Assembly: GCA_963691705.1 (NCBI GenBank)
Contig: OY829541.1
Span: 15,866,564-15,930,563, forward strand
DNA: 64,000 nt
Origin: Viola odorata
Lineage: Eukaryota > Streptophyta > Magnoliopsida > Malpighiales > Violaceae
Reading direction: 5' to 3'
Both the position numbers and the translations under genes were made by a program. Positions 23,596 through 58,489 of the stretch are shown here, one piece after another. The notes beneath the pieces were generated by a model. The model was given only the letters and a program-made list of their open reading frames with translations. It did not search any database and was not told the DNA's origin. Numbering within the stretch: the first letter of the stretch is position 1; each line of letters starts with the position of its first letter.

Positions 23596-23599
23596 TCAT

Positions 23600-29228: not shown

Positions 29229-29800
29229 TGATAACAATCCACCTAAGGAAAATGGTATTTCCGTCTATTGCCCTGAACTGAAAAAAGAGATCACTGTTCC
29301 CACCTTCGCGGTAGGTAGATGGCCACCGCCTTCCCTAGAGGCTGACGCCAAGAGGACAAAACAGCGCTCGGGAGTCTTCCCCAAACGAACCTTCTAGATG
29401 GCTCGAGGAGCTGTCTCATTCTGAGGAATACCACGCGTCAGGGGGACCACTCAGTCGCTACCCTATCGTGGTAGCATTTATCCCATGGCTATCGCCACAT
29501 TAACATATCATCCGAGGGGCGAACCACGATCCCTAACGTTAGGGATAGCTCTCTAGCTATCCCCAAATGCGGAAATGCTCAATTCTTCTATATATATACC
29601 TCCCCCTCAAAGGAGGCAGGTAAGCTTAATCTGACTGGCCCAACCTCTGCCAAATTCAGTACACATACTGACTTAAGCATCAGAGTGTTTCCGCCGGAGA
29701 CCCCCTCCGGCGTATTGCAGGTACCGCGGACCGTCGTGAGCACTGATCTGAGAGGAGCCGTTCCGCCATACATCCTTCGGCAGAAGACAAAATCTTATCA
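29229..29800 (+). repeat. Tat-A 5' LTR
   Basis: Begins TGATAACAATCC and ends AAATCTTATCA. It carries a TATA box (CTATATATATACC, about 29588-29600) and, downstream of it, a strong hairpin (29692-29712). Confidence 0.95.
29692..29712 (+). promoter_or_regulatory. Conserved LTR hairpin followed by a CAG|GT site
   Basis: CGCCGGAG / CTCCGGCG form an 8-bp stem around loop ACCCC in the transcribed part of the LTR. A GCAGGTAC sequence follows 8 bp later. The same stem and following CAGGT occur in the Tat-A 3' LTR (46457-46475) and in the diverged Tat-B LTR (49896-49912, reverse strand). Confidence 0.7.
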
Positions 29801-32905: not shown

Positions 32906-35900
32906 CCATCGACATGTGAAACTCCCAGCTGAATCATATGATGGCACGAAAGATCCCATTTCTCACCTCAATAAGGTGAAAGATTTTGTGCAATTCCAAA
33001 CGCGCAGTGACGCAGCATTGTGTCAGATCTTCGTAATGACGCTGTCAGGCGTGGCACGTCTCTGGTTTGAGGGACTCCCGGCCGGGTCTATTGATAATTT
33101 TTCTCAACTGGAAGAAAAATTCAAAAGTCGGTTTAGCATGGCTATTCCTATCAGGAAGTCAGCAGCTGCACTGTTCGATATCCATCAAAAACCGCAGGAA
33201 TCGTTGAACGACTTTTTAGGTCGATTTGATCTTGAAATGTCCCTAACGCTAGGGGTCACTATCGATTTTGCGGTTGAGGCCCTAAAACGCAACTGCCGAT
33301 ACGAAAAATTGAGAGACACGCTAACGGTGGACCCACCAATGACCCTGGATGCGTTGAGGCTGAAAGCGCATAATTATGCGAGAATGGAAGAGGAGGAAAA
33401 TAGAGAATGGATCCGAGACATGCCAACGGACCCATATGTGGCCCCTAACGCCCCGCATAACAGTGCCCCTGACGCACGACCCACTGATGATCATGGGCAA
33501 CGAAAAGAGCATACTGTCAAGGCCTCTAACCGGCAGAGAGGCAATTTCTCGAAAGGAAGACCCGAAGGGTCCCCCACTCGGAAACAAGCGGATCCGCCAA
33601 AAGGCCGGATATATGATCCTGACCTTCCATCTCTTATACTCCCAAGGGCTGAAATCCTAGCGATAGTCCAACAGCGAAATCTGCCCATTAGATATCCGGC
33701 TCCTGTGAAGCCAGGAGTGATCATGGGAGGAAGGGAAAACGCGTATTGCAAGTTCCACAAGGTCAAGGGACATTCGACAGATGTATGCAGAGAACTGAAA
33801 TTGGCCATAGAGCGATTGGTCGAAGAGGGCTACCTAGGAGAATTTGCCACCAAGGCAAGAGAGGAGGCCAGGAACAACCCAACGGGAATGACAACTAATC
33901 AGAGGCAAGCGTCTTCACGCGCCACGGGGGCTAACGCAATTCCCCTTGGACAAAATAGAGAAGCTCTCGTTGTTCATAGCGATCAGATGCCTATGATTAA
34001 TATTATTGCCGGGGGAACACCCTACTTCGAGGAGGCCATACCACAAACGCCCAGTCCTGGGGAAAAACGCAAGCGAGAAAGCGCCCAGGTAAAAATTGAG
34101 GCGATAAACGCCTTAGATAGAATGATATTGTCCTTCTCAGAAGAAGACGAAAAGGGCATTGTTTTCCCACACAACGACGCGTTGGTAGTCACACCTGTCA
34201 TAGGAAGTCACGGGGTGAGAAGAACCCTTGTTGACAACGGGAGCGCAGTAAATCTATTTTCGCTGGAAGCGTATAACTTGATGAAACGCCCTGATGGGGA
34301 GCTAGCGCCATGCGTGAGGCCAATTGTCGGGATTGATGGCGTACCGATACCGGTAGCTGGAATAACATCCTTACCAGTGTACTTCCGAGAAGACACATCC
34401 AAGCGCTCTGAAGAGCTATTATTCCTGGTTGTAGACCTAACGTTACCATACAACGCTATACTGGGGCGACCGTTCCTCAATCGTTTCGGGGTACCGATAT
34501 CCCAAAAACACCTGAGGATGAAATACCCCTCGTGGGACGGAGTGGTCTCAATCAAAGGAGACCAGAAACTGGCAGCCGAATGTTATTTGCTTATGACTCA
34601 GAGGAGTTGTGACCGCTACGTTTGCGTGGCAGACGATCCTTTCGACGATAAAGAAGAAAAACACACTCAGCCACTAGATCAGATGATGTCAATACCTATC
34701 GCTGAGGACAATGAGGCAAATCTCTTGGTCAGTGAGAAACTAAGCCCTGAAGAGAGGGTGCAACTAACCCGACTATTAAGAAAATGCAAGGGAGAATTCG
34801 CATGGAAACCAGCGGACATGCCTGGAATCTCGCGAGAAGTCGCGGAGCATCGACTAAACGTCAGCCCTGAGGCCAAGCCTATTCAGCAGAAACGACGCGC
34901 CTTTTCATCAGAAAAAGTGGCGGCTATCGAGAAGGAGTTACTGAAGCTCATGGACGCGGGGTTCATTCGAGAAGTTCAGTACCCAACCTGGCTGGCTAAC
35001 CCGGTGCTAGTTCCAAAGCCTAACGGAGATTGGCGCATGTGCATCGATTTCACTGACCTAAATAATGCTTGTCCCAAAGATTGCTATCCCCTTCATCGAA
35101 TTGACCAGCTGGTCGACCAAACTGCGGGGTACGCTTATTTAAGCTCTCTAGATGCCAACTTCGGGTATCACCAAATCCCAATGGCCGCAGAAGACGAAGA
35201 AAAAACTGCCTTCATCACCCCTAGGGCCACATATTGCTACACCGCAATGCCGTTTGGGCTGAAGAACGCCGGGGCAACGTTCCAGCGCATGGCGAATAAG
35301 ATTTTCGAAAAGCAAATAGGGAAAAATGTAGAGGCCTACGTGGACGATATTCTGATTAAAAGTCGAAGCTTCGGAGACCATCTTGCCGATTTGGAAGAAG
35401 TTTTCAATGTGATGAAAAAAATACAAAATGAAGCTAAACCCGCGAAAGTGTATGTTCGCGTTCCAAACGGGAAAATTCTTGGGCTACGTGGTTAGCCGAA
35501 AGGGTATTCAGCCCAACCCTTCAAAGGTAAAGGCCATTCAGGACATGATATCCCCGCGAACCGTCAAGGAAATACAAAAGCTCACTGGTCGCATCATCGC
35601 GTTAGGACGGTTCATATCTAAGCAAGGAGAGAGATGCCTCCCCTTTTTCAAGGTCATTCGAAATAAGGCCCCATTTGGGTGGACAGAGGAATGTGAAAAC
35701 GCGTTTGCAGGACTGAAAGCCTACTTGTCATCCGATCTAGTGCTAACGAGGCCTGAGTTCGGCGATGAGCTATACCTATACCTGGGAGTAGTTGACGAGG
35801 TAGTCAGCGCCGTCCTCGTACGAAGTGAAGGGCATGTACACCGCCCTGTATTTTTTGTGAGTCATATATTAAAAGACGCGGAGCTACGATACGCCCGCAT

Positions 35901-37965
35901 CGAGAAGATAACGCTTGCTCTAATACAGGCAATGCGAAAGATGGACCGATACTTCCAAGCCCACCCTGTTACCGTACTAACTGATCAGCCGCTGAGATTT
36001 TTTTTTAGAAAGCCTGAGTCCTCAGGGAGAATGTTGATTTGGGCAATCGAGCTCGAACAATACGGGCTGCAATACAAAGCCAGGTCGGCAATAAAAGCCC
36101 AGGCGTTAGCTGACTTCATAGCGGAATGCACATTCACCAAGGAGGTGTTGGAAAAACTGTCAGAGGAAGAACCAGAAAACTCATGCCTACCGTTCCCGGA
36201 AACGCACGCAGACTCATGGGTTATTCACGTAGATGGCGCAAAAAATCAAGAGCTAGCAGGAGCAGGCGTTTTCCTGGTGGGGCCAATCGGCATGGAAATG
36301 CGATATGCCATCAGAATCCTGCAGCCGTTATCCAACAACGCCGCTGAATATGAAGCGCTGCTGGCAGGACTCAGAATTGGAAACACCTTCTCCGTCGAAG
36401 CCTCTACCATGGCGGAAGAGCAATACGGCTTGCGCCTAAAGATACGAGGAGACTCTAAATTGATAATGGATCAAGTCCTTGGAAACTCCCAAGCCCGAGA
36501 ACCCGTCATGATTCAATACTTGGCCAAAGTAAAGCGTGAGCTGTCGGAGATGCAGAAAAAAGGCACTCGGGTAATCTTCGAACACATCCCCAGAGAAAGT
36601 AACGAAGAGGCCGATAGCCTCGCCAAGATGGCAGCCAACGCAGACGCCTCCATACCCAACGAGGTACATTACGGGGAGCTATCCATACCCTCTTTCATAT
36701 CGTTGTGTGTGGAAGAAATAGAAAGTGACTGGAGGATCCCAGTGGTAGAATATCTGAAGCATGATAGGCTACCAGATGAAATTGCGGAAAGAAGGAAAAT
36801 CCTAAAACGGGCGGCGCGATGTACATATTACAATGGAGAGTTAATACAGAGGTGCTTCTCCCACCCAGCCGCTAAATGCATAACGGAACAAGAAGGCCTG
36901 CATGTGCTAAGAGAAATTCACGAAGGGATATGCGGCATGCACATCGCGAGCGATACTCTGGCAGCTCAAGTCTTTCGGTCGGGATTCTATTGGCCCACCA
37001 TACGAAGAGATTGCCATAACTTCGTGAAAACCTGTCAGAAATGTCAGGAATACGCTAAGATCCCTCGAAAACCGGCCACACCAATCTCAGAAATAATTGC
37101 TCCATGCCCGTTTGCCAAATGGGGCATTGACATATTAGGCCCGTTTCCAATGGCTAGATCTCAGCTAAAATTCGTGGTCGTGGCGGTAGACTACTTCACA
37201 AAATGGGCCGAAGCCGAGGCGTTAGCCACCATCACCACTGAAAAAATTTGGCATTTTTTCAAACACCAAGTCATCATGCGATTCGGGGTTCCGCGCGTAC
37301 TGGTTAGCGACAATGGAGCACAGTTCACAAGCCAATTCTTCAGGGATCAGTGTGCGGGATTCCAGATCGAACAAAGGTTCTCTTCCATGGCACACCCCCA
37401 AACCAATGGCCAGGTAGAGGTAACCAACCGCAGCATCCTTAGTGGCATCAAAAGAAACCTGGAAGGTTCCAAAAAGAAATGGCCGGATGAATTGCCATAC
37501 GTACTATGGGCCTATCGCATGACTGTCAAGACTGGCACTGGAGAGACCCCATTTGCGTTAGCATTCGGAACCGAAGCTGTCACACCGGTTGAGATCGGAA
37601 TGATGAGCCTTCGGGTGGCTCATTTCAGAGAAGAAAATAACGAGGAAAGGTTACGTGCTAACCTTGACGCCCTACTAGAAACACATGAGGAAACACTGCT
37701 GAAAACTCTGCACTACAAAAGAAAAATGGCGCAATACCACAACCGGCAAGTGAGAGAACGATTGCTCAAAGCTGGGGATTTAGTGCTCAGAGATAGACGA
37801 GCGGTAGGGCAGCGCATGGGCAAACTCAGCCCAAACTGGGATGGACCGTATCGCGTCACCCGTATTGTGGGAAGAGGAGCTTACCACCTGGAAATGCTCG
37901 ACGAAATGCCTCTACAGAACTCGTGGAATATAGCCCGGCTGAAGCTATACCACGCCAGGAACTAG
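32906..37965 (+). pseudogene. Tat-A gag C-terminus and pol (one frameshift)
   Basis: The frame holds the gag domain, a CX2HX4HX4C zinc motif (about 33745-33790), an aspartic protease with DNGS, RT with YVDD (about 35337-35350), and then a break. A run of seven A (35415-35421) shifts frame by one, and pol continues in the frame ending at 37965. The second part has RNase H, an additional archaeal-type RNase H (HVDGA, AEYEAL, RGDSKL), an integrase HHCC zinc region, DDE residues in GIDILGPF, VSDNGAQF and TNGQVEVTN, and no chromodomain. Two RNase H domains mark the Tat lineage. Apart from the A-run, pol is open. Confidence 0.92.
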
Positions 37966-38039
37966 CTCACCCTATCTGGTAACATCAATACTATTCTAAC
38001 AAGATATATCTTTCTGTGCGTTTGTTGTTGAATAAAATG

Positions 38040-38475
38040 CAGATAGTGAAGCATGCCAGGAGTGAAAATCCTATCCTTGTGATGGCTGGTCCTGATCAGA
38101 CAGCTCACTAAGACGAGGCACGCCCTGGCATGACTAAGCGTTGGGAGTGAAAATCCTATCCTTGTGGCAACCGTGCTCACATAGACAGCCCATTAAGACG
38201 AGGCACAGCCCCAAATGCTCCCGGGAGTGAAAATCCTATCCTTGTGGCAACCGTGCTCACACAGACGGCCCATTAAGACGAGGCACGATCCCAAGGAGAG
38301 ACCAACTCCGTCCTGGAAGTGAAAATCCTATCCTTGTGGCAACCGTGCTCACATAGACGACCCATTGAGACGAGGCACGTTCCAGGGACGCGAGGTTTCA
38401 ACGCTTAGGAGTGAAAATCCTATCCTTGCAATGGGTGGTCCTGATCAGACAGCTCGCTAAGATGAGGCACTCCCC
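38040..38475 (+). repeat. Five-copy motif array between pol and the antisense genes (Tat-A)
   Basis: GTGAAAATCCTATCCTTG recurs about every 80-95 bp (near 38062, 38146, 38226, 38318 and 38409). Each copy is followed at a fixed distance by a GACGAGGCAC-type block (GATGAGGCAC in the last). Related motifs occur at the same place in Tat-B (58490-58930, reverse strand). The zone lies between the convergent ends of pol and the antisense gene 4. Confidence 0.85.
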
Positions 38476-38938
38476 AAGCCAATCTCCGGCGGAAGGAAGG
38501 AGGGGACATTCCAGCTAGAAATTGAGCGGCCGACACCCGACGAAGTAAGGCTGGAAAGACATCCGTACTAAAACAACAACGTCGTAGCAGGCCTAACGGG
38601 GCAAGAAAGCTCCCCAGACAACAAAGGGTGATTTGAATCTGAGCAATGCTGAGTCATTCTTGGAAATGCTATCGGAAGGCAACAATAAGGCCATCAAAAA
38701 GGCAGCTGAGGAACCTATATGAAGGTCATGCGAGAGCAAAGTGGGCATATCTATAGAGGCGCGGCAGCAAACGCCATGGACGAATAATTGCGCAAGAAGT
38801 ATTATGAAACAGAGCAGATAAGGAAGTTCCGTTCAAAAGGGGTAGCCCAACCAAGGCAAAAAGTGATATCGTTAATATTACAAAACAAGGAAGGGCTCGT
38901 CGGCCGCAAAAATCAGAATATATCTAAGTTCAAAAAAA
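38476..38938. other. Tat-A spacer between motif array and antisense gene 4
   Basis: Purine-rich sequence without an open frame that I can support. It probably carries the 3' UTR of gene 4 on the minus strand. Confidence 0.4.
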
Positions 38939-41214
38939 CTAAGGAGGGGGTGGTGCGTTGACTCCTCCTTGCTGTCTCGATTTCCATAAATAGAAGTCCT
39001 CATCAGTAATAGTGGAGACTCTCCTATCAAAATACGCGGCCAACTCATCAATACGGAGTTTTTCTACCCCATGATGATGCATCAACGCCTCCGACATGAG
39101 CCCTCCGCCTTCCTTCAAGTACCACTGATTCTTCTCAACGTTTAAAGCCAGATCGGCAGTCAGCTCGGCATTCCTCTGCCTCTCCTGGCGCAACTCATTC
39201 TCCTCACGAGAAAGGCGTTCGGTCAGAATCCGTTTATCCTCCTCCAAAGCGTGCTTGACAGCCTCCAGCTCTTGCTTGACAGTCGTCACTTCCTGTCGGG
39301 CAGACTCCGTTTCTTGGTTGGCAAGGTTAAGCGCATCCACAAAACTCTGGCGCTCGTTCTGCAACCTGGTTATCTCCCCCTGCCCGTTTGCGGCAATCCT
39401 AGCATTCTCCTCATCCATGTAATGGAGGTGGCAGAAAAAAGAAAGCGCTTGGGAGCGAAGAAATTTTATACGCTCCTGCTCACTCCTAGCCGCAAAGGCA
39501 TCCCTCTCCCTTGGAAGAGACATAATCTCGACTACCAGGTAAGAGGTAGACGCGAGAATGGAATCATGATCAGTCCCGGCAGGAAATTGCAAAATGTTGT
39601 CCCTGAAAGAACGCAAGCCAATATGATGAGTGGGCATGAGGGGAGGATTATAAGTAGAGGCACCGGCTATCAAAGCAGGGGCAGGGCCACCTCTCGCGAT
39701 AGGGGGAGGAGACATCGGAATAAAAAACAGAGTGGCAGGAGAAGAGGGTCGACTGCCGGAACCTCCCGCGTTGGGCACTGGGGACCCATCTCCACCAAGT
39801 GCTTCAAGGTTAAGGGCACTTGAGTTATAGCCTGTCGCGGTGGAGGAATCACCTAAAACGCAAGGACTACCACCGAAATCAATACCCTGCGATTGCTCGG
39901 CAGGAATGCCACCGCCCTCAGGGACGTTCAGAGGAGGATTCGCAGCAGAAGAGGTAGGGCTGTGCTGAAGCTCATAGCGAGCCTTCTTCTGACGCTCTCG
40001 AAGGACCTCAGAAATAGACATATCACCTAGAGAGGTTGAGTGAGCAGAAACAGTGGAAGCCTCCTAGAAAACGCAGTGCACGTATGATAAGAAAATTATA
40101 CAGAAGAAAAGAAAACCTTAGAGAGAAAACAACGCATACCTGGGTGACTACGGAAACCAGAGGTATCGCGGTAGGAATGGGATCAACTATCGCCTCTGAA
40201 GAAACAACAGTGTGGAGGGAAACGGGTTGCGTGGCACGTGTTTTCCACACTCTCTTCTTCCTTGCAACAAGGGTACGAGGTGGTGGCGATAAGGTAGTAC
40301 CCGTAGCGGTAGCAATGCCTTCCTCTTCCGCAGCGGCAGCAGCCCTGGCGGCGGCGACAACTTTCTTCCTTTGTTCCTGTTTCCTCTTCCTCCGGAAGTA
40401 CTCAGGCTCCCAACCAGGCGGAGGCACTGCACAGTTAAAGAAACGTTAGCGTTAGTACCTCTTGGCAGCACAAAAAGAAAAAGGGCAAACGCTCACCCTT
40501 TTTGCACTGTTCCATTTCCAGACCGTTAGCCACTTTTCGGGCATCAACGCTGAAATCTAGTTGAAGTAGCGTCTTCAACCAGCCATCTTCTGGATCAGAA
40601 AGGGGTTTCCGATGGCCCCAAGCTCCATCTTTAATTTTCTCATTGAAGCCGGCCCTCCATAACGGCTCGGGCAAATCAATAGTAAAAAAATCCTCTTTCC
40701 AATGAGGAACAGAAGACTCGATACCCATAAGCTTCCAGGTAAAGGGCTTCAATGAGCCATCTTCATAACGAGGGGATATTGATATCACCCTCTTACGAGA
40801 ATACAACTGGAAAATGTCATGAAGCAGGGCCAGAGTGGGAGACTCGATCCCCTTGAAACGACACAGTGCGGCAAAGGCACTGACAACGCAAATCGCGTTA
40901 GGGCTCAATTGAGCCGGAGCCAAATCAGAATCAGCCAATAACAACTCAACAAGCGGGTCAAGAGGAAGACAAAACCCATGGTCAAATAACTTAGCATATA
41001 ATATTCTACTGTTACCGGGCAGAACGCTGTTCAGGCGAAGTGATTCGGAAGCAGCGTGCACAGGATATTCTCTGGGAAATCGCGCATTACACGCGGCAAG
41101 CCTACGATTAAATAAGGGCAGAGTATAGAGAGAAGTGGGGGTAATGCTAATTTTTTCTTCTCCGGCGGACCCTTGAGGATCCTCCTCATCGGAAGATCTC
41201 TTAGTCTTAGCCAT
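38939..41214 (-). CDS. Tat-A antisense gene 4: Transposase_28-like protein with coiled coil, 3 exons, open
   Basis: Exons 41214-40497, 40426-40140 and 40063-38939 join in phase (718+287+1125 nt) to 709 aa with no stop. Exon 1 holds a globular domain with the pattern of the Pfam family for putative gypsy-type transposon proteins (PF04195): LYAKLFDHGFCLPLDP, then LAPAQLSPNA, then WKEDFFTIDLPEPLWR. Exon 2 is short and basic (RRKRKQEQRKK), like a nuclear signal. Exon 3 is Pro/Ser-rich, then has a coiled coil of about 90 residues. Tat-B carries the same three exons with the same phases. The gene is antisense to gag-pol. Function unknown. Confidence 0.85.
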
Positions 41215-41869
41215 GACCAATAAAGGAGAAGTGACGAGCAAAGAAAGGGTGTGTACCTTCGGAAAGAGAACACCAGGATTCTCAGACCAAAAAGAAGAGA
41301 GCGGCGCGAGTTGTTTGTCCAGAAAGCAGCAGCGTGCGAGAGAGGAGATTAAAAAAGAAAAAGAAGGAAGGAAAAACATTATATATAACACTGAAAGGGC
41401 GTGACCAATCAGCGGCGGACACATGGCAAAGCAACGCGTCGGGAAATAAGGCACGCGCGAGGAGATACAAGTTTAAAAAATGATGACGAAACGCTTCGGC
41501 GATTCACGTCTCCCTAGGAGACGCTTGCTTCAAACGCCTTTTCGTAGAAAGACACGTGTCCTTTTCCATCATTGCTTTTCAGATCGAATTAAATGGAAGG
41601 ACTGCGGTATTTAATGGCCTAAAAAGCAGTGCTGGCTTAGCCAAACGGCGCGGCAGCACAAGGAAGATAATGAAGAAATGGCGATAGCATCACAACAATT
41701 CACACGAATGCGATAAAGGTTATGTAGCGTCAGCATTATTACAAGAGGAATAATGACAAATGGTTTTCGGGAAAAAATAGAAGCAGACAACAATAAGAAT
41801 AACAAGGGAGGGTCCAGAAACCCGTTGTGACACTTCTCGAAAAGCAAAGCGGCACCCCAATCTTTGGAG
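41215..41869 (-). other. Intergenic region between antisense genes 3 and 4 (Tat-A)
   Basis: Leader and promoter of gene 4 plus the 3' flank of gene 3. It contains an inverted G/C-rich patch (about 41505-41525, tctccctaggagacg) and no supported ORF. Confidence 0.5.
41379..41386 (-). promoter_or_regulatory. TATA box of antisense gene 4 (Tat-A)
   Basis: TATATATAA on the minus strand about 169 bp upstream of the ATG at 41214. In Tat-B the TATA box of the same gene is about 170 bp from its ATG. Confidence 0.65.
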
Positions 41870-43985
41870 TTAGCCCCTTTCCCCTTCTGAGGCAGAAGAA
41901 CCAATCCCACCTTTGCTAACCTCATCCATCACGGCAGAAATATAGTCAGCAACCTGGGCAGGGTCGGAAGAGTTGCCCTTGAAACGGGTTGCGAATCCAG
42001 AAGTAAAGACTTCTAAGATTTTCTTCTTCCACCATTCCTCCTTTAATGATTTCCTAGCGGACTCCTCGTCTCGAGCAGACATCTCTTCGCGAAGAAGGAG
42101 ATTTGTCTTCCTCTCTAGCGCTAACTCTGCCTCCAGAACCTCCACCTTTGCTTTCTCGACAGACCTCTCTCTGTTTAATTCCTTTTGCGACTCATCGCAA
42201 AGACGCGTTAGCAACCCCATTTGCCCCACCGCTTTCTCAAGCTGCGCTTGCTTAACGCACAGCGCGTTGGAAAAATTGCGTGACTCGCGATCATGAATCT
42301 TGAACAGATAGTTCAGGTGATGGAAGAAATCCAGAGAATCATTCATCATATGGCGAAGACGAGCCAGTGGAGGAAGCTGAAGAAACTTTTCCTTCTCCTT
42401 CTGGGAGCCCAGCATCTCTCCTATCAAAGGCGCAGTAAACTCATCTCGGGAAAAAGGTTGGGGAACCCCGACAGCACGAAGACCATCAAAGCAGAATCCC
42501 TTCAAGCCCATACGGTAGGAGGGGGTCTCGGTAGGACTGCCATAAGAAAGATTAATTGACGGAGCGGGAGAGGAACTCCCGGAAAAAACATCCGTGATAG
42601 GAGAAAAGAACAGTTGTGGAAGGACTTTAGGCGGTAGCCCAGCAGTCGAATCCGTAGTAGAAGGCGTAGCGACTACGTCAGGAATGCAATGAGAAATTGG
42701 AGAATCGGGAGCGTCAACTGTAGGAAGAGGACACGCTGTCGATGGAACCTCTGCCTCGGCAGAACACGTAGCAGCCGGTGCCTCAGTAACTCCCACCGGT
42801 TGGGAGACACTCGTCCCAGTCGAAACGGCAGAGATAGGAACAATCGCTGCATCCACAGAAGAAGTCCCGGTGGCCTGCTCATCCGTGGCAAATCGAAGTT
42901 TTTTCCGACGCAAGGAAGAGGCATGGCAAAGGTCCGACTCGACATCCACATCCTCATCATCACTAGCAATCACCGTCGTTGCGGCTGGGCTGGAATCCGT
43001 CCTCTTGCGATGCTCCGGTAGCCAATTTTCCACAAAGCGAGAAACTCGGGCAGAGCTAACGGGCTTTTGCCCTCCCCGGGCAACCGTCTTGGTTCTCCTC
43101 CTTGGGGGACGAACGTTACCCTGATTAGAGCCATCGGCAAGGGGGGAAGCTGGTAAAGTTTGAAGTGGCGTAACATTCAAAGGAGCGCCAACGTCACCTG
43201 GGAATTAACCGTTAGCATCCTATAACAAAAGAAACGCGCAAAGACAAAAGCAAAGAAAATACGAAAAGAGGCAGACTCACCCATAGCACACTCCTCTAGA
43301 GGTTTGAACAAGGCAAAGCTACGGATGCGGTAGTGAGTACCTTCGTCTAACAGAGCGTTAGCTTGCTCCAACTCAGCCCTGGTCAATATCGAGGGATTCG
43401 ACCAGATGGGGCCTATCAGCTCCTGGTTGAAATTAATACGCCACAAACGGGACGGTAGCTCCAGAACAAAGAAACTGTTTTCCAATCAGCTACACCCTTC
43501 TTAAAGCCGTGAAAACGCTGCCAGAACGACTGCACGAGCGCGTCATTCCACCGAGGAGTAATTTCGATTAAACAATTATGGCAATTCATACTAAAGAATT
43601 TGCGAAATAAATTGAGAGATGGGGTAGAAATGTTCTTCAACTCGCAAGCGCGAAGAAAAGCATAAACCGCACACCAGGAAGAGGGAGTTATCTGGGCAGG
43701 ATTAAGGTTATACTCCCGCAGCAGCGTTAGTATCGATTCATGAACAGGAAAGCGGAAACCGTAAAGGAACATCTTAAAGTAAAAAAGCCTACTGTAACCC
43801 CACGCCGGATTATGGAGCCGCATATCACTTCCAGGGATAGAGGGCTCATACCCGGGAGGAAAGGTAATACCGTGTTCCTCCAGTTCGGCTTTCAGAACCA
43901 CATCGCATGTAAAAATACTAGGTGATTGCGCGACCTCTGGATCCATGGGTTTCCAGATAACCTGGCGAGGTCTATTTCTAGCCAT
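41870..43985 (-). pseudogene. Tat-A antisense gene 3: Transposase_28-like protein with coiled coil, 2 exons, one frameshift
   Basis: Exon 1 (43985-43281) carries the same kind of globular domain as gene 4: FKMFLYGFRFPVHE, LNPAQITPSSW, and WRINFN after the break. Exon 2 (43197-41870) has basic clusters (PPRRRTKTVARGG), a Ser/Thr/Pro-rich middle and a long coiled coil near the C-terminus. The splice is GT-AG in phase 1, at the same place as in Tat-B. A run of four Ts at 43478-43481 (As in the coding strand) is one base short relative to the frame, separating two open parts of exon 1. Otherwise the frame is open over about 677 codons. Confidence 0.8.
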
Positions 43986-44478
43986 AACAAACCAGCAAAA
44001 ATGAAATCTGAGAAGGATTGAATTGGTACCTTGAAAGGGGAGAGTTACAGAGGAATCGGCGGACGACGACGGACGACCGGTAAGACGTTCGAGGAAGAGG
44101 ACGAAGGAAGATAAGAGAAAAAATTCGAAGCAAGGGCAAAAGTTCTGAAAAAAGAAAAATGGCCCCTCTTAAAGGATTAAAATGCCACCGCATTAATTAA
44201 GCCACCAATCGCTCGGAGACGCGTGTAAAAAGAGGTTGGCCACGTGGAATCACATTAAAGAAATTAGAAAAAGAGAAGTTATTCAGCGTGATTCCCCAAA
44301 AGGGCGACAGAGTTGACCCAGTCAAGATAACTGCGAAGCGACTGCCTCGGCCAAGCCAACCGCTTACGCTGGCTATCACCAAGGACCAGTAGGCTAACGG
44401 AAAGTAACGACAGAAGAAAAAGGCAGAAAATATCATCTTATTCATAAAATGCCAATAGGCATATACAACACAGAGGCG
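43986..44478 (-). other. Intergenic region between antisense genes 2 and 3 (Tat-A)
   Basis: Leader of gene 3 and 3' flank of gene 2. No separate gene supported. Confidence 0.45.
44166..44173 (-). promoter_or_regulatory. Weak TATA-like box of antisense gene 3 (Tat-A)
   Basis: TTTAAGAG on the minus strand about 185 bp from the ATG at 43985. Tat-B has TTTTAAAA about 190 bp from the same gene's ATG. Confidence 0.4.
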
Positions 44479-44934
44479 TTAATCCTCATCAGCCCAATCC
44501 ATGTCATAACAGTACTCATAGTCCTCCGGGGACGACGACAATCCACTATTGTAGGAAAAGAAATATTCGACAGGTTTGGGCACAAGCTCCGTCGCATGGG
44601 CTACCGTCTTGTCATAACGGGCACGGGAACTCTCCCCAACGGTAGAAGCCACTGGCTTCAAATCAGTGCCATGAGAAAGAGCCTTATTCTCGAAAGAAGG
44701 AGAAGGAGGGGCAGACGGTGACGCTTCATCACTTTTTGGTAGCGTCACGTAGTGGGGCACAAAGCCGGTAAAGAAGGACTCAAAGGTCTGCTTCTTCACT
44801 TTCACTGGTTTCTTGGGACCCTGGCGTCTAGCAGGACATTTAGTAGGTCTCCACGGAGGAGTCGAAGGAGGATTATCCGAATCCGGCGAAGTCGGAGGTG
44901 TTGGCAAGGAATCACGCCCGCAAAAATCTGTCAT
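44479..44934 (-). CDS. Tat-A antisense gene 2: proline-rich protein with acidic C-terminus (151 aa)
   Basis: A single exon. The N-terminus is Pro/Ser/Thr-rich (TPPTSPDSDNPPSTPP). Next come a basic stretch (PKKPVKVKKQ) and a conserved ESFFTGFVPHYVTL block. The C-terminus has conserved aromatic and acidic residues (YNSGLSSSPEDYEY ... DED). Tat-B has the same protein with the same motif order at 51506-51993, so the frame is under constraint, or was. No known family recognised. An acidic aromatic tail of this kind could be a protein-interaction or activation segment (inference). Confidence 0.75.
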   Translation of the reverse strand: MTDFCGRDSLPTPPTSPDSDNPPSTPPWRPTKCPARRQGPKKPVKVKKQTFESFFTGFVPHYVTLPKSDEASPSAPPSPSFENKALSHGTDLKPVASTVGESSRARYDKTVAHATELVPKPVEYFFSYNSGLSSSPEDYEYCYDMDWADED

Positions 44935-44999
44935 TCTGACCTACAAAAAGCAAAGAGAAGGAAAAGATGAAGATGAACAGGGAAAGGGAAAGCATTTCC

Positions 45000-45007
45000 C
45001 TTAAATA
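45000..45007 (-). promoter_or_regulatory. TATA-like box of antisense gene 2 (Tat-A)
   Basis: TATTTAAG about 70 bp upstream of the ATG at 44934. In Tat-B the spacing is about 71 bp. Confidence 0.55.
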
Positions 45008-45426
45008 ACCAAGGAAGCGCTCCGATCCTCGCACAGATCCTGAAAAATCAATTAAGATGTCTGGAAAAAATAACCGCAATGGTAGAAGCTGATCCGGCAC
45101 CAATATACCTGCTCGTTAAATGCGCCAACCAAAAGGCACCAAATAACTACCCAATCACTCACCCCTGGAACGGCGGCTTTGGAAATAGTTGAGTCAAAGC
45201 ATTCATTGCTCATTCATGGAACGCAACCACTAAAAGGGTATGTACGGAAGAAGGCTCATTTTCAGTTGGGCTTGCCACCAACACATTCAGCCAATGCAGC
45301 GAGAAATAAACGAAAAGACTGGAAAAAGCAAAAACAACCATTTATTTATGGCCTGAGCGGCCTCAGCGTGCAGATATATACATAAAAGCATAAGAGAAAG
45401 GCAACAAGAGGAAACAAAGGCAGCGG
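45008..45426 (-). other. Intergenic region between antisense genes 1 and 2 (Tat-A)
   Basis: No gene supported. It contains a 20-bp block (ggctcattttcagttgggct) at about 45248-45267 that is repeated next to the 3' LTR at about 45970-45989. Confidence 0.45.
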
Positions 45427-45810
45427 TCAGGCATTGGATCCAGCATCATCCTCCCCTGGTACGACCGGGATATCCCTCAGTGCGTCAGCAACAGAGGTCA
45501 GCTCAGCGGAGCAGGCCCTCATCCCCTTCAAGCAGCAGGCTAGCAAGTCCTTCCGCTGCTGCAGCATCGAGGCAACCACGCCAAGGTGGGCAGTAGTAGT
45601 GGCCAGCTTCGCCAAGCTCTCCAAAGGACTGAAGTCCTCCAAAGATATCTCCAGCTGTTTGGACAAAATAGGGGTCAGTACCCCCTGCAACTCCAGGACA
45701 TCCTCCGAGGTCTTGGTGATCATCCTCTCCAAAAAGCCGATGTCACCTTCAGTAAGGTTCTTCAAGGTCAAAGTTTTGGAGATCAGGAAATTTCGGGCCA
45801 GTTCATCCAT
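45427..45810 (-). CDS. Tat-A antisense gene 1: small helical protein (127 aa)
   Basis: The start was chosen at 45810 (MDELARNF) because the Tat-B homologue starts with MDEVTKNF at the matching place, although the frame is open further upstream. The protein is predicted all-helical: ISKTLTLKNLTE, TSEDVLELQGVLTP, LEDFSPLE, QQRKDLLACCLKGMRA, and a DDAGSNA C-terminus identical in both copies. It has regularly spaced Leu and conserved Cys-Cys. No family recognised. Tat-B gene 1 is also open, so both copies remain intact while other genes have decayed. Confidence 0.75.
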   Translation of the reverse strand: MDELARNFLISKTLTLKNLTEGDIGFLERMITKTSEDVLELQGVLTPILSKQLEISLEDFSPLESLAKLATTTAHLGVVASMLQQRKDLLACCLKGMRACSAELTSVADALRDIPVVPGEDDAGSNA

Positions 45811-45872
45811 GGCGAAATATGGAAAAGAAAGGGACGTACAAGTGCGAGGAAACTTGCGCAGAAGAAACTTCA

Positions 45873-45879
45873 ATTTATA
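45873..45879 (-). promoter_or_regulatory. TATA box of antisense gene 1 (Tat-A)
   Basis: TATAAAT on the minus strand, 66 bp upstream of the ATG. Tat-B has TATAAATA 86 bp upstream of its copy. Confidence 0.6.
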
Positions 45880-45992
45880 AGCCCTGACAGAAATCATCTA
45901 AACCACCTTCTGACAAGGAAACGCTCTGATACCACATGGAGAAGGGGCGTTAGCCCTTGGTAAACACTCGGGCTCATTTTCAGTTGGGCTTA

Positions 45993-46564
45993 TGATAACA
46001 ATCCACCTAAGGAAAAGGGTATTTCCGTCTATTGCCCTGAACTGAAAAAAGAGATCACTGTTCCCACCTTTGCGGTAGGTAGAGGGCCACCGCCTTCCCC
46101 AGAGGCTGACGCCAAGAGGACAAAACAACGTTCGGGAGTCTTCCCCAAACGAACCTTCTAAATGGCTCTAGGAGCTGTCTCATTCTGAGGAATACCACGC
46201 GTCAGGGGGACCACTCAGTCGCTACCCTATCGTGGTAGCATTTATCCCATGGCTATCGCCACGTTAACATATCATCCGAGGGGCGAACCACGATCCCTAA
46301 CGTTAGGGATAACTCTCTAGCTATCCCCAAACGCGGAAATGCTCAATTCTTCTATATATATACCTCCCCATCAAAGGAGGCAGGTAAGCTTAATCTGACT
46401 GGCCCAAGCTCTGCCAAATTCAGTACACATACTGACTTAAGCATCGGAGTGTTTCTGCCGGAGACCCCCTCCGGCGTATTGCAGGTACCGCGGACCGTCA
46501 TGAGCACTGATCTGAGAGGAGCCGTTCCTCCATACATCCTTCGGCAGAAGACAAAATCTTATCA
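45993..46564 (+). repeat. Tat-A 3' LTR
   Basis: 572 bp, same ends as the 5' LTR, about 17 differences. It is followed by GCACC. The sequence just before it (agttgggctta) is not a polypurine tract. Confidence 0.95.
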
Positions 46565-49807: not shown

Positions 49808-50340
49808 TGATAAGAGTCCGAGGGATACTGAGCAGGATCGACTTGATCTGGGCTGGTCGGGAACACTGTACTGGGTCTTCGTCACCTGCAAAATACCGGA
49901 GGGGGTCTCCGGCGTAAACACTCCGATGCCAAAGTCAGTGCAGGTAGCCAAAATGGCAGGGGTTCAGTACGCTATCTTAGTCTTACCCCCTTGTCTGAAA
50001 AGGTGGGGGTATTTATAGGCAAAGGAAAGAGTGTACCGACAGGGGGTGGGAATAGTCCCTGGTAGGTGTCGCTGGGGTGATAGATGCCGCCGGGGTGGCG
50101 TTGAGTGATGTCATGCGGGATGACGTCATGCGGAGTGACGTCATGGATGACCTAGGATGGGATGCCGCCGTGCGGATGCCACATGAGAGCCCCCCCGCTG
50201 ATGTCGACCATCCCAGGGTCGGTCGCCTAGGCTAAGGGCGGTAAGAATAGGGTCTCGTATCCCGTGGCGGGTACAGTATGTTGGCCGGGTCACCCGACGG
50301 GGTAGTGGAGATGCCGCTTCTGTGGTATCGATAGTTATCA
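49808..50340 (-). repeat. Tat-B 3' LTR
   Basis: Read on the minus strand it begins TGATAACTATCG and ends CTCTTATCA, like Tat-A. It has a TATA box CCTATAAATACCCC (about 50006-50019) and the conserved CCGGAG/CTCCGG hairpin (49896-49912) followed by GCAGGTGAC. It is 533 bp against 572 bp in Tat-A. Confidence 0.88.
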
Positions 50341-50480
50341 TATGCCCAAACAAAAACTAACCCGAGTGTTTACCAAGGGCTATCACAGCGTCTCCGGTCC
50401 TGCCCCTTCGGAGGTTTCTGCCCCAATGTGGGCTCGACGATCGATAAAGGTATATCTTCGAAATGCCTTTTTCCGAAGTC

Positions 50481-50569: not shown

Positions 50570-50956
50570 ATGGACGAAGTCACCAAAAACTTCCTGCTCT
50601 CCAAAACCCATGCCCTGAGGAACCTAACTCAGGCAGACACCGATTTCCTGGGTTCGCTGAGCGTTAAGACCTCGGAGGATATACTGGAGCTCCAGGGGAT
50701 GCTGACTCCCCTGCAAGCTAGACAGGCTGCTGTTACCTTGGAGGATTTCAGTCCCGTGGAGAAAGCGGTGAAGCTGTCGGTGGCTGTTTCTCAAATTCAG
50801 TTGCTGATGACGACGCTACAGCATAGGAAGGACTTGCTGGGATGCTGCCTGAAGAGCATGAGGGCATATTCTTCTGAACTGACCGCTCTTGCGGATGCCC
50901 TGAGGGAAATTCCTTTCCTGGAATGGGAAGATGATGACGCTGGGTCGAATGCATGA
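50570..50956 (+). CDS. Tat-B antisense gene 1: small helical protein (128 aa), open
   Basis: Homologue of 45810-45427. Shared blocks: NFL-SKT, NLT, TSEDILELQGMLTP, LEDFSP, HRKDLLGCCLKSMRA, ADALREIP and a DDAGSNA C-terminus. It is predicted helical and has conserved Cys-Cys. The length matches Tat-A within one residue. No stop or shift, unlike its three neighbours in this element. No known family. Confidence 0.8.
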   Translation: MDEVTKNFLLSKTHALRNLTQADTDFLGSLSVKTSEDILELQGMLTPLQARQAAVTLEDFSPVEKAVKLSVAVSQIQLLMTTLQHRKDLLGCCLKSMRAYSSELTALADALREIPFLEWEDDDAGSNA

Positions 50957-51505: not shown

Positions 51506-51993
51506 ATGGCTGACTCCCGTTTTTTGTTTACTGCCGCTCGCGATTCTCCTCCGACCCCTCTAACTTCTCCTGACTCTGACAATCCTCCACTCTCACCCCC
51601 TAGAGGCCTGCCAGACATTCCGTAAAGTGCCGGGGTCGCAAGAGATTGAAGAAAATAAAGAAACAATCTTTCGAATCCTTCTTTACCGACTTTGAACCTC
51701 ACTACCTTTCGCTGCGGCAAAAGGATGAAGCGTCACCATCCGTCCCTTGTCCTTTTCCCAAGGACGGGACTTCTATGCAAGATGCCGCTCCAGGACTGGT
51801 TACCCCGACCCTGGAGGAAAGCTCCCACGCCGCTTCAAAGGAGGGAACTGCCCCTACGACAGGTTCCGCGACTGGGCTTGGTAAAAGACCTTTCGAGATT
51901 GGCGAGCCCTTTCCTTTCTATAACAGTGGGTCGCCATCATCTCCGGAAGATTATGATTACGTCTATGACATACACTGGGTGGACGAAGACTGA
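51506..51993 (+). pseudogene. Tat-B antisense gene 2: proline-rich/acidic protein, frameshifted
   Basis: ATG 51506 opens a Pro/Ser/Thr-rich start (SPPTPLTSPDSDNPP) that matches Tat-A gene 2. An indel near 51600-51610 shifts the frame, and the rest (ESFFTDFEPHYLSL, YNSGSPSSPEDYDY, WVDED) lies in the frame ending at 51993. The span is 488 nt, not a multiple of 3, confirming one net shift. Confidence 0.75.
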
Positions 51994-52510: not shown

Positions 52511-54578
52511 ATGCCTCGCACGAGATCTCAATCTAGTTCTTTAGCTACCCCTAGGCCAATTTCTCGATATCCCGAACTTGAAAACACCCCTAGCATCTTT
52601 ACTTGCCCTACTGTCTTACGCCTCAAACTGGAAAGCAATAATATTACCTTCCCCTGCGGCTATCGCCCCACTATTCCTTCTGACACTATGAGGCTTCATA
52701 GCCGGCTCTAGAAAACTCATAGGATTCTTTACTTTAAAATGTTTCAATATAGGTTCCGCCTCCCAGTTCATGATACGCTGGAGCGTGTGTTGCGCGAGCA
52801 CCGGCTTAACCCTGCGCAGATCACCCCTTCCTCGTGGAGTTGCATCTACGCCTTCCTTCGTGCTTGCGAATTAAAAGATATTCTTGCTCCCTCTGTTGCT
52901 TTGTTTCGCAAGTTCTTGACTCTGATTTTTCGCGACGGCTTCATTAATATTATTCCAAGATGGGATGATGCTCTGGTAAGGCCTTTTTGGCAGAAATTTC
53001 AAGGATTTGAGGGGAACGTCGAGAACTGGAAGAGCGGTTTCTTCGTTGTCGAATTACCCTCTCGCCTGTGGCGTCCTGATTTCAACCTGGAGGTGGTTGA
53101 TTGGGCGAGGCCAGCGCCTCTGTCTAGGGAAGAGTTGGATCAGGCCAACGCTTTACTGGAGATGGAGTCCTTTTTCCAGATCCGAAACTTTGTCTTGTAC
53201 AGGCCTTTAACTGAGTGTACCATAGGTGAGCTTTTGAGCTTCGCCGCTGCCTCGCTTACCCCTTGTTTACTAACATAGCTTTTCGCAGGGGAGACCATCG
53301 CTCGACCGCTCTCCGAAGGTGACGCTCCTCACAAGGTTGTCGCCCCTTCAACGACTGCTCCCTCTACTTCCGCTGGGGCTCGAGCTGATCACTGTATGCC
53401 CATAAAGAAAAGAGCTTTAGACGAGATTCTTTCCAGGGAAAGCGGTTCCTCCTTCCGCACTTCCCGCTTCGTGGAGAACTGGTTACCCAGTCGGAAGAAG
53501 AGGTCCGGGTCTGGTTTGCCAGTGACTGAGACAAAGATTTTCTCCTACGGAGTCGAGGACATGGAGGACATGGACACGGAACTGAGCCTACGCCGGGCTT
53601 CCTCAGCTCAACGAAAGAAACTAAGGGAAGCAAGCGAATCTCAAGGGACCAAGATGGCTGCTCAATCTCCTCCAAGCGACGCCTCAAATACCGTCGCTTC
53701 CCAGACTGCCGCTTCTCCCGACACCACTATGGAGGGTGCCGCTTCACTGGATGGCGCTTCCTCGACTCTGGGGTTGGCTGCCCCCAACAAGACCTCCTCT
53801 GCCGAGACGATGCCGCCATCCGCTGCAAATTCCACTCCTGTCATGGAGCCTCCATACTCGCCCATTGGCCCCTGTATTCTTGATGTGCATCCCTCAGTCC
53901 CAAGTGGGCCTGGTTCTTCTCACTCTCCCCCGAAGTCCCCTTGCGCGTTGTTCCTTACTTTAATTCGAGACATCGGGGGCTCAGGCGGTATCTCCGCCCC
54001 TTGCTTTGTTGCTGATCTTTCCCGTGATGGGCCTCAAGGGCCCCCCTCTCACCGGCTAAATCTGTCGAAATTTGGGACTGACGGGTTCCGTGCCCTGGGT
54101 ATATCAGACCCCTTATCGCAAGATCAGCGCACGACTATCTTGGCCTGCGAAATGTTTCGCGCCTCCGAGGAGGAGAGTAGGCTACTGCAACTTCCTCCCG
54201 AAGTTCAGTATGTGCGCGTCATGAACAACTGCCTTGCTGCCTTTCGACAACTTCATTACTTCATCAAGGCTCGTGCTACCCAATCTCAAAACCCTGGTGC
54301 CTTGGCAAAGGTAGAGGAGCTGTCGCGACTCCACAAACGCGCTCAGGCCGAACTCATTCCTTCTTGAGGAGGTATCCTCCCGCGATGCGGACCTGTTGAA
54401 AGCTTTCAAGAAGGTGACCTGGTGGAAGAAGAAGACTGAACAAGCCTTTATCGCCGGGGTGACAGATCAGCACCGCAGCAGATCCGCTGATCCCACTGAG
54501 GTCGCCAGGTATGCCTCCGCGAGGATGAAAGAGATTGATGAGAGCCAAGAGGGCTTCCTCTCCTCCAAAGAGGAGTAG
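52511..54578 (+). pseudogene. Tat-B antisense gene 3: Transposase_28-like/coiled-coil protein, 2 exons, broken
   Basis: Exon 1 52511-53225; intron 53226-53288 (GTGAGC...CGCAG); exon 2 53289-54578. The domain pattern is the same as Tat-A gene 3 (FKMFQYRFRLPVHDT, LNPAQITPSSW, ELPSRLWRPDFN, RFVENWLPSRKKR). An in-frame TAG lies at 52709-52711. The coiled coil shifts frame near 54355, and the C-terminal piece (WWKKKTEQAFIAG ... SSKEE) is in another frame. The intron is in the same place and phase as in Tat-A. Confidence 0.82.
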
Positions 54579-55250: not shown

Positions 55251-57567
55251 ATGGCTCGTAATCGCCGCTATCCCCGCTCTGCTAGGGAGGGGGATATTGA
55301 TACTACTGTTTCCACCATTGCTTCCACCGCTGTCCTTCGACGGCGCCTGCGGAGCTATAATGCTACTCTCGACCAGCTGGAGGGGTATTCTACTGAAGTT
55401 GCCCCAAAGTCCCTTCGCCTTAATAGCGAATTACCTAGCAACCGTAGGGTTCTTTATGCCAAAATGTTTCATTATGGTTTTCGGTTGCCTCTAGATCCTT
55501 TAATTGCCGAGTTATTCTCTGAATTTGATCTAAATGCTGCCCAATTGAGTCCAAACACCTACTGTGGCATTTATGCTTTTATAGCCCTTTGTAGATATAT
55601 AGGGAATGAATCTCCTTCCTTGTTGTTACTTCGCTCCCTTTTTCAATTATACCACCATAACAACGGCATCATAGCGATATCGCCACGCTATGATGTTGAA
55701 GCTCTAAACCCCTTTACCTGGAAGCTGTTATTCCTTGAATCTTCTATTGATGCTTGGAAAAGAGGATTCTTCATCATCAATCTGCCCCAGCCTTTGTGGC
55801 GGAGCGGGTTTAATCTCGTCGTCCGAGACGCTGCCTGGGGTGGCAGGCCAGAGTTAGGACCGGTTGACCAAGGCTGGCTGGACAAGCTGCTCAACCTGTC
55901 GGGGATTCCCAGTGTTCGCACTCGCGAACTCGCATGCCGGGGCGACATCCAGGGTTGCATTCAAAGTGAGCACCGTCCCTTTGTTCGTTGTTTCACGCCA
56001 ATACTAACTCTAACATTCATTTCTTATCTCTAAAGATCCTCCCGCCGGGTGGAAACCTGATTGCATCAAGAAAAGAGAGAGAAGAGCTCAGCAGAAGAGA
56101 GAAAAAATGGCTCTTTCTGCCGCCTCGGCTGGTGCCGTGACTGACACCACGCACGCGTTCACTTCTGCACCTGAGTCCTCTTCTCTTCCTCGAGTGGAGG
56201 CTACTGCCACATCAACTGCTGAGCCAATTTCCTCCCCTAGCGTTGCTCCTACACGAGCGTCATCTTCTCGTCCTCCCCTTGCAAGAAAGAAGAAAAGAAC
56301 TCTCCGCCTTCGCGTTATCGCTCCTACCCGTCCTCCTGTTCAGGTGGTTTTTACAAAATTTTCTCTGTCTATACATTTTGTGTCCGTTTCTTAATTCCCC
56401 TATTTCTTTTGCACGTAGGATACCGCTGCTATTGCCTCTTCTACTACTCCTTCGCGCGACGATATGGATTTGTCGGGTATTCTTGACCCCAAGCGTCCGC
56501 GTCTTAATGAGGACTCAACTTCAGCGAACGACTTTGTCGTTGCTCAGGAAAGGCAAGGCGGCGTCACCAGTACCGGCCCCCTGGCGGGTAATCAAGGCTC
56601 TGGTCTGGCAGGGAACGGGGCTACCTCTGCGCCGCTTCACTCTTCTTTTGCCGTACCATCTCCTCCACCTGGCAATCCCTTGGACTTTCTAGAGGATCTT
56701 GCAGAGGAAGACTTTCCCTCCCTACAAACTGGCGATTTCAATATTGACGCTGGGCCATCTAATCGTTCCCCTCCGTCCCCTCCTGATGTCTTCTTCATTC
56801 CTACTGCTGTTCAAACAATCTCTCCCTCTCTTCCCCCCATGGACACTCCGCGCATGGTGGCTGACCTAAGCACTATACTCTCTAGCGGAGCCGCCTCCCA
56901 TCAAGTTGATTTAAGTAACATTCGCCAGCGCGGGTTCCCGACATTGGGGGGCGACAGCTCCCTAGCGACATCCGCCTATCTGGCAGGGCATCTGATGTCG
57001 GTTGAGGAGGAGGAGCAGGCCTTTCTCTCCGTTGCCGAGGGCGAGCAACTGCAGCAGATAAGGACCCAGCTGTTCTCTAGCTTTCAGGGCTTCCATTACT
57101 AGTCTAGGAATGTGACGAGACGAATGAGCTCTCTCCAATCTTCCTCCCAGGAATGGCGCAACACTAATCACCAGCTCTTGGAAGAAATCAACAAGTACCA
57201 AAGGGAACTTTATAAAACTCAAGAAGAGCTGAGGAAGTGTGTTGAAGAGCGACGATGTGCGTAAGCCAGTTTGGGAGTTGCGAGGAAAGAGTTGGAAGAG
57301 GCCATGAGGGATGCCGCTCTTCAAGCGGAGCAAAGTAAGAATGCCGCTCTTACGGAGGAAACGGCGGACAAGTGTAAATGGTTTCTGGAACAAACTGCGG
57401 GCCTCATGGCCGACTGCTTCATTGAGCGTCACGGCCGCAATTTCTTCGACGCTGATGCCATTATCCGCCTCTTCAAGCAGAAGTCCAGGTTCCTCACGAA
57501 AGAGGGCTACCGCCAAGCGAAGAGGCCACGGCACGGTGAGGGGGACAACAGCATGCCCAAGCCGTAA
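55251..57567 (+). pseudogene. Tat-B antisense gene 4: Transposase_28-like/coiled-coil protein, 3 exons, two stops
   Basis: Exons 55251-55965, 56036-56343 and 56419-57567, all GT-AG, with phases identical to Tat-A gene 4. Exon 1: YAKMFHYGFRLPLDP, LNAAQLSPNTY, WKRGFFIINLPQPLWR. Exon 2: PPAGWKPDCIKKRERR, basic. Exon 3: Pro/Ser-rich, then coiled coil, ending RLFKQKSRFLTKEGY ... MPKP. Two in-frame stops lie in exon 3 (TAG 57100-57102, TAA 57262-57264) with the frame otherwise kept. A neighbouring in-frame ATG at 55245 is possible. Confidence 0.85.
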
Positions 57568-58300: not shown

Positions 58301-58489
58301 GGGTGTGGGCTCGTATTTCCCCAACTCACGTGGGGCGATCCCGCCCGATGTCGCTCATGTCACGTACTCTTCCAGCCAAACTTCACCGGGTTTGTCCCTT
58401 CCGGTTACTAGCTGGGGTACCGTGACTTCCCGCATTTCTTCAATCGGCCGGGAAGTGCCCCCTCTCAGTGCGCCGCCTGATCAGGGCTA

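Follow-up and report, generated by a model that had tools for sequence, protein, structure and literature searches.

What would lead a retrotransposon to keep a set of host-style genes on the strand opposite to its own gag-pol? This question is raised by a 64,000-nt stretch of Viola odorata DNA (contig OY829541.1, hereafter the window), in which two diverged Tat retrotransposons, Tat-A and Tat-B, carry four antisense genes, here numbered I to IV, in identical order (38939-45879 on the minus strand for Tat-A, 50570-57567 on the plus strand for Tat-B). Host-style genes accompanied by a conserved row of motifs beside pol suggest the element's own regulatory module, not a single stray reading frame. 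The reading we favor, with a probability of roughly one half, is that the four antisense genes form a nuclear module that regulates in trans, perhaps by way of the motif array.

The anatomy of this cassette, that is, its genes, their order, and its predicted introns with conserved sites, is well supported. The first-pass annotation had described a set of four antisense genes, identically ordered in the two elements, gene III with two exons and gene IV with three, and this holds both in the coordinates (Table 1) and in the tblastn pairs, with six GT-AG introns of 63-83 nt. Comparison of A with B gave 52% identity over 145 columns for gene I (E 6e-47), 45% over 133 for gene II (E 4e-30), 56% over 155 and 35% over 322 for exons 1 and 2 of III (E 3e-58 and 5e-42), and 46% over 275 and 26% over 281 for exons 1 and 3 of IV (E 3e-67 and 7e-26); the matches of all four genes are far above chance. 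In Tat-A, genes I, II, and spliced IV are open and III is broken in exon 1, while in Tat-B gene I alone is open throughout, and II, III, and IV are broken.

Table 1. Positions in the window of the parts of Tat-A and Tat-B.
Feature	Position	Strand	Remark
Tat-A 5' long terminal repeat (LTR)	29229..29800	+	572 bp, TGATAA...TTATCA; 97.03% identity to 3' LTR
Tat-A gag-pol	32916..37965	+	two overlapping open reading frames: gag, reverse transcriptase, two RNase H domains, integrase
Tat-A noncoding array	38058..38490	+	five units; unit starts 85, 80, 92, 92 nt apart
Tat-A IV exon 3	38939..40063	-	spliced IV open, 709 aa
Tat-A IV intron 2 (predicted)	40064..40139	-	76 nt
Tat-A IV exon 2	40140..40426	-	basic
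Tat-A IV intron 1 (predicted)	40427..40496	-	70 nt, equal length in B
Tat-A IV exon 1 (TRP28 domain)	40497..41214	-	PF04195 29.3 bits; P0001 50% identical
TATATATAA, candidate TATA box	41379..41387	-	173 nt upstream of gene IV ATG (173 in B too)
Tat-A III exon 2	41871..43197	-	
Tat-A III intron (predicted)	43198..43280	-	83 nt, GTGAGT...CAG, CTAAC 18 nt from end
Tat-A III exon 1 (TRP28 domain)	43281..43985	-	PF04195 45.1 bits; frame break ~43491 to 43482
Tat-A gene II	44479..44934	-	151 aa, intronless; (S/T)P-rich start, acidic-aromatic tail
Tat-A gene I	45427..45810	-	127 aa, intronless; predicted helical hairpin
TATAAAT, candidate TATA box	45873..45879	-	69 nt upstream of gene I ATG (89 in B)
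62-nt block at 3' LTR border	45938..45999 (A), 50334..50395 (B)	.	80.6% identical
Tat-A 3' LTR	45993..46564	+	572 bp; pair identity 97.03%
Tat-B gene I	50570..50956	+	128 aa, open
Tat-B gene II	51506..51993	+	frame break near 51600
Tat-B III exon 1 (TRP28)	52511..53225	+	single in-frame stop
Tat-B III intron (predicted)	53226..53288	+	63 nt
Tat-B III exon 2	53289..54578	+	frame change near 54350
Tat-B IV exon 1 (TRP28)	55251..55965	+	open
Tat-B IV intron 1 (predicted)	55966..56035	+	70 nt
Tat-B IV exon 2	56036..56343	+	
Tat-B IV intron 2 (predicted)	56344..56418	+	75 nt
Tat-B IV exon 3	56419..57567	+	in-frame stops
Tat-B array counterpart	58344..58836	-	collinear with A; 372/543 columns identical

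Exon 1 of both III and IV encodes a Transposase_28 domain (PF04195, TRP28), scoring above the curated cut-off of 26.2 bits in both genes of Tat-A, in III and IV of Tat-B (35.1 and 33.6), and in P0001 (46.9), the one protein-database relative returned for IV exon 1; basic segments are present in both genes. The gene I proteins of A and B are 57% identical and end in a common tail, DDAGSNA; the one database relative returned, P0002, is 48% identical. Structure modeling predicted two long helices for gene I (predicted local distance difference test, pLDDT, 85.9; predicted template modeling score, pTM, 0.69; two sequences) and a mixed fold for TRP28 (pLDDT 73.8, pTM 0.73; seven rows), and no function could be read from either model. 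Since the cassette lies between pol and the 3' LTR, which is the site of env, its products might be envelope-like or cell-to-cell movement proteins, but the genes occupy the opposite strand and no membrane helix was found by 19-residue hydropathy, a crude measure, whose top value among nine pieces (the second A-III exon-1 piece being excluded) was 1.34. The usual threshold for a membrane helix is 1.6, and we regard this explanation as extremely unlikely. The basic segments, together with a helical-hairpin gene I, would also suit proteins that serve the particle or the pre-integration complex in assembly, nuclear entry, or integration, in the manner of some retroviral accessory proteins, the array then being an unrelated RNA or DNA signal. 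The product of Grande gene23, a comparable antisense gene, is located in the nucleus (PMC7264820), as such a role would allow. Separate antisense promoters, however, would be expected to uncouple the dose of these proteins from gag-pol, and the acidic-aromatic tail of gene II would be unusual in a particle protein, so this alternative appears to us possible yet somewhat unlikely.

Searches covered the window's own genome (699 Mb in 26 contigs). For TRP28 they gave 11,414 first-look candidates, and 150 of the 150 scored exceeded the cut-off; for gene I there were 6,878, of which 150 were scored, the listed ones being 92-100% identical to that of A and 20 of the 150 carrying an internal stop. 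Judged by these first-look numbers, elements with the cassette may be very numerous in this genome. From the scored TRP28 hits, 20 were chosen by eye for variety in score and frame length, and the 10-kb stretch around each was taken as a sampled locus. Genes I, III, and IV stand on one strand in cassette order in 14 of these 20 loci, a share that is not an unbiased estimate, the sampled loci being high-scoring hits. A match to IV exon 3 was obtained in 11 of these loci, and in all 14 the interval from I to III contains a reading frame that matches gene II of A (E at most 1.6e-5, low-complexity filter off). The cassette is thus shared with other elements of this genome, although six of the 20 do not hold the order I-IV: L014 has III without gene I, and the remaining loci contain just one TRP28 gene each.

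A tree of 29 TRP28 pieces contains three groups: III (15 rows, support 100/100), IV together with P0001 (99/96), and single-gene loci (99/98), the last comprising four of the five such loci but not the fifth. Its root is a midpoint root only and does not fix the closest pair among the three. The III and IV groups each contain A plus other families, and the III/IV split is therefore older than those families.

The one intron of III and the two of IV sit at matching places in A and B, all six are predicted as GT-AG, and CTAAC lies 18-32 nt before the intron end in all four first introns. The length of exon 1 results in an equal phase for A-IV, B-IV, and B-III, from which A-III deviates because of its frame break. 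Past its exon 1 part, P0001 fits IV exon 2 of B best in another frame (score 81, equaled by 0 of 500 shuffled targets), with 7% and 12% of shuffled targets as good in the other frames; for IV exon 2 of A, the corresponding values are 0.8% in the shifted frame, 1.8% unshifted, and 62% in the third. Such a frame shift is what an intron at the position of IV intron 1 would give. Scanning of 15 other loci found a candidate of 68-70 nt starting with GTGAGT at this position in 10 and a different candidate in L028, and found none in L014 (which is without a IV gene), L016, L017, and L018.

Selection on protein was assessed through the ratio of the proportions of nonsynonymous and synonymous differences (pN/pS). 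Between A and B it is 0.43 for gene I (bootstrap 0.32-0.57), 0.42 (0.31-0.56) for 109 codons of the later part of gene II, 0.35 (0.26-0.47) and 0.38 (0.24-0.55) for III exon 1, and 0.40 (0.34-0.49) for IV exon 1, against 0.12-0.22 in pol and 0.24 in a gag/protease piece; all these values are rough because synonymous sites are close to saturation. The later exons reach 0.59 (III exon 2), 0.71 (IV exon 2), and 0.63 and 0.65 (IV exon 3). Constraint on the cassette proteins is weaker than on pol, and it is weak in the later exons. Pairwise comparison was also made between copies, with A and B included and pieces with a stop dropped. For gene I (15 of 16 pieces and 104 of 105 pairs, one short pair being excluded), the median pN/pS is 0.32 at pS 0.02-0.10 (5 pairs), 0.09 at 0.10-0.30 (21 pairs), 0.08 at 0.30-0.50 (33 pairs), and 0.34 at 0.50-0.90 (45 pairs). 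In the same four bins, III exon 1 gave 0.43 (4), 0.19 (22), 0.22 (25), and 0.26 (54) from 15 pieces, and IV exon 1 gave 0.22 (1), 0.22 (6), an empty third bin, and 0.47 (38) from 10 pieces. At pS 0.1-0.5, therefore, the medians are 0.08-0.09 for I (54 pairs), 0.19-0.22 for III (47), and 0.22 for IV (6). Past selection on protein, as proposed in the first-pass annotation, is borne out for I-IV between A and B and for I, III, and IV among other copies; of the two outcomes that the annotation named in advance as contradicting its account, ratios near 1 for all four genes and absence of the cassette elsewhere, neither was seen (pN/pS below 1; 14 of 20 loci). These ratios also bear on the idea that the antisense RNA itself is functional, pairing with the sense RNA and either feeding or blocking small-RNA silencing, with coding secondary. 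Such a role has been raised as a possibility (PMC7264820), but it leaves unexplained both the amino-acid selection and the frames kept across intron positions, and we consider it very unlikely.

The array lies directly past pol in Tat-A, between pol and the cassette, where about 520 nt of noncoding DNA are conserved with B; A and B are 68.5% identical in the array. Its unit has the cores AGTGAAAATCCTATCCTTG ... AGACGAGGCAC, with AGATGAGGCAC in one unit. The A-B alignment scores 176, compared to at most 26 in 30 base-composition shuffles, and the array is noncoding: no frame of either element is free of stops, and gap lengths are mostly not divisible by three. At the DNA level it is the best-conserved long stretch from pol to the LTR (blastn 67.7%, as against 58% for genes I-III and 59% for IV exon 1). 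Its ungapped identity of 372/469 (79%), a figure inflated by the choice of alignment, compares with 130/385 fourfold sites in pol (34%). Core positions, which were placed on the A sequence but picked with the A-B alignment already in view, are kept in B at 129 of 150, compared to 182 of 283 spacer positions (p 1.1e-6). The earlier statement that intergenic DNA is unconserved was therefore wrong, given the array (372/543), the block at the 3' LTR border (81%), and a relaxed blastn alignment of 3,025 columns running from gene I to gene III, intergenic DNA included, at 58%. A further array in Tat-B (59006-59588) separates pol from the conserved one and consists of some 16 repeats of 36 bp, many of them containing palindromes of the type CATGCC-CAAC-GGCATG; a repeat scan of Tat-A reported no counterpart of it.

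Recent exchange between A and B could produce a similar array without selection. Recombination among retrotransposons is frequent, and in gene I the A-B pS is 0.57 (0.45-0.69), below pol's 0.82 and 0.86, which hints either at exchange or at an additional DNA or RNA signal inside the gene. Against exchange, the cores are conserved beyond the spacers and nine other loci retain the array stretch at 64-77% identity to A, making this account quite unlikely. Those nine come from 13 downstream stretches; L014, L016, and L018 match the array inside their own stretch (L016 at 80%). In total, the array stands beside 12 of 15 cassette-type loci and none of the five single-TRP28 loci. This distribution speaks for a further reading, in which the TRP28 proteins, in the manner of VANC of VANDAL transposons, bind their own array and remove silent marks, a form of self-recognition that counters silencing. 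The targets of VANC are tandem repeats of short motifs in noncoding DNA (PMC10398659), and here, too, motif repeats are found in the element's own noncoding DNA. Fast divergence is typical of VANC targets, however, but not of this array, which has stayed conserved across diverged families, and the co-occurrence of array and cassette is confounded by kinship among copies; we therefore find a VANC-like system unlikely.

Candidate promoters were sought as TATA motifs, TATAWAW occurring in 6.6% of 3,000 random 230-nt stretches. Before gene I it was found in 12 of 13 testable other loci within 230 nt, 11 of them at 56-70 nt (the distance in L026 being taken from a different ATG), and before gene IV in 11 of 13, at 174-178 nt. 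For gene II, examined in A and B, the motif is TATTTAA 73 nt upstream of the ATG in A and TATATAA about 74 nt upstream in B, and gene III has a weaker TTTAARA at 188 nt in A and 193 nt in B. Each gene may thus have its own promoter, the case being best for I and IV. As a separate observation, AGGTAY stands before the ATG of III in 14 of 14 testable loci (44-47 nt) and of IV in 12 of 13 (55-58 nt), and Tat-A and Tat-B have it ahead of both genes, at 37-51 nt; it is missing from the 80 nt upstream of genes I and II in these two elements, and from the 60 nt upstream of gene I in all 13 other loci.

From these sequence features we infer splicing, promoters, a nuclear role, array binding, and an effect on expression. 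Under the regulatory-module reading, each of the four genes would probably be transcribed by RNA polymerase II from its own promoter on the opposite strand. Replication would proceed via the sense RNA, and the introns would survive transposition because antisense introns go unrecognized in the RNA that replicates the element. III and IV, with their basic segments, probably work in the nucleus and bind nucleic acids; the acidic-aromatic tail of gene II suggests a transcription-activating or recruiting partner, and gene I would be a helical-hairpin adaptor. The products would operate in trans on the element's own copies, with transcription or silencing as the likeliest target, and the array next to pol, with its bipartite motifs, is the candidate site for their binding. 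Support for nuclear antisense genes comes from another plant element, as Grande gene23 has a nuclear product and its own promoter (PMC7264820).

Several points weigh against this reading. The array and gene I are dispensable for some TRP28 elements: L009, L019, L020, L023, and L025 have a single TRP28 gene near pol with no match to gene I or the array. Moreover, the array was not matched beside L013 and L017, and in L010 a match was found only on the far side, near another integrase piece, and was not counted. III exon 2 and IV exons 2 and 3 are fast-evolving (pN/pS 0.59-0.71), and a strict TATA box before gene III was found in none of 14 loci tested. A strict scan for the III intron gave candidates in only four of 15 other loci; a looser pattern lacking the branch site, devised after five loci had been inspected, gave 65-67 nt candidates in 11 of 15 and none in L016, L018, L021, and L024, of which L016 and L021 had strict-scan candidates. 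The TRP28 model had no match among solved or viral structures, and DNA binding by TRP28 consequently rests on the prediction of another paper. Finally, the cassette is known here from DNA alone. Taken to its full extent, the proposal would be a complete opposite-strand self-recognition system, in which four genes, two of them spliced, are driven by their own promoters and their products bind the array and maintain expression of the copies against silencing. As a whole this is doubtful; if true, it would be a retrotransposon counterpart of VANC, kept since before the element families parted.

The elements themselves can be assigned to the Tat/Retand lineage by two features, a second RNase H between RNase H and integrase in Tat-A pol and, in both elements, TRP28 genes on the antisense strand in the interval from pol to the 3' LTR. 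The later open reading frame (ORF) of Tat-A (35428-37965) contains, in order, RT_RNaseH (112-212), RVT_3 (268-402), and rve (559-657), and we take RVT_3 to be the archaeal-type RNase H (aRH). Its location agrees with the aRH placement in PMC6317226. GCACC flanks Tat-A at both outer LTR edges, and a purine-rich GGAGAAGGGGCG lies about 45 nt away from the LTR rather than adjoining it. The region from pol to the LTR (37966-45992) measures 8.0 kb, with the four genes on the opposite strand. Between a 270-aa ORF (29886-30698) and the gag frame, the segment 30698-32916 is lower in GC than its surroundings and may have been inserted into the element's 5' part. Tat-B is oriented on the minus strand, opposite to Tat-A; its pol frame reaches the window end and its 5' part falls outside. 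Between the two elements, ORFs on the minus strand at 46714-49712 resemble, by eye, another gypsy-type pol in pieces. Elsewhere in the window are a tandem array with a 20-bp unit (14865-15400) and a satellite-like array with a spacing of mostly 338-345 bp (21968-23718).

Compared with known systems, this anatomy seems partly known and partly new. Antisense TRP28 ORFs are characteristic of Retand elements (Tat clade, Ty3/gypsy), and a survey of 617 assemblies reported that the elements representing its clusters have antisense ORFs in every case and that 97% of clusters have TRP28 (PMC11963269). The survey's ORF count started at 600 nt, with shorter ones admitted only for TRP28; TRP28 was present in 57 of 104 antisense ORFs, and the main text does not use the word "intron" (PMC11963269). 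Grande gene23, RIRE2, and Silene Retand are earlier antisense cases (PMC7264820). The first-pass annotation was right that single antisense ORFs are known, though this understates the literature (PMC11963269, PMC7264820), and of its claim to novelty the antisense TRP28 genes must be given up as a published Retand hallmark (PMC11963269), while the four-gene cassette shared with other elements stands. In a literature search that left much of the field's journals outside, no account was found of genes I and II as conserved genes, of the introns, of the III/IV duplication, of a TATA motif at near-fixed distance before I and IV, or of a noncoding five-unit array by pol. The view thereby shifts from a retrotransposon plus one additional ORF to a retrotransposon that has a conserved cis array and whose opposite strand carries four genes, some of them with introns. 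Many such host-like transcription units may carry plant-gene annotation, and the predicted splice junctions, TATA positions, and candidate binding site make protein function directly testable.

With Retand elements the cassette shares antisense TRP28 between pol and the 3' LTR, a long pol-LTR region, and arrays often adjoining pol; there, however, the arrays are highly variable and the region spans 2.9-6.6 kb (PMC11963269), whereas here the array is conserved and the region longer. Four genes, introns, two TRP28 paralogues, and two small genes further set it apart. Maize Grande gene23 occupies the corresponding antisense position between pol and the 3' LTR, has a promoter of its own, and yields a product located in the nucleus (PMC7264820), but is reported as one gene, and the likeness is by description only. 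HBZ of deltaretroviruses differs from the cassette in comprising just one gene, with transcription driven by the 3' LTR. It is likewise comparable by description only, as a nuclear regulator encoded antisense in a retroelement (mentioned in PMC11963269). VANC of VANDAL is similar in combining an element-coded trans factor with noncoding motif repeats (PMC10398659), but VANDAL is a DNA transposon with fast-diverging target repeats, and the resemblance is one of working logic, not of membership.

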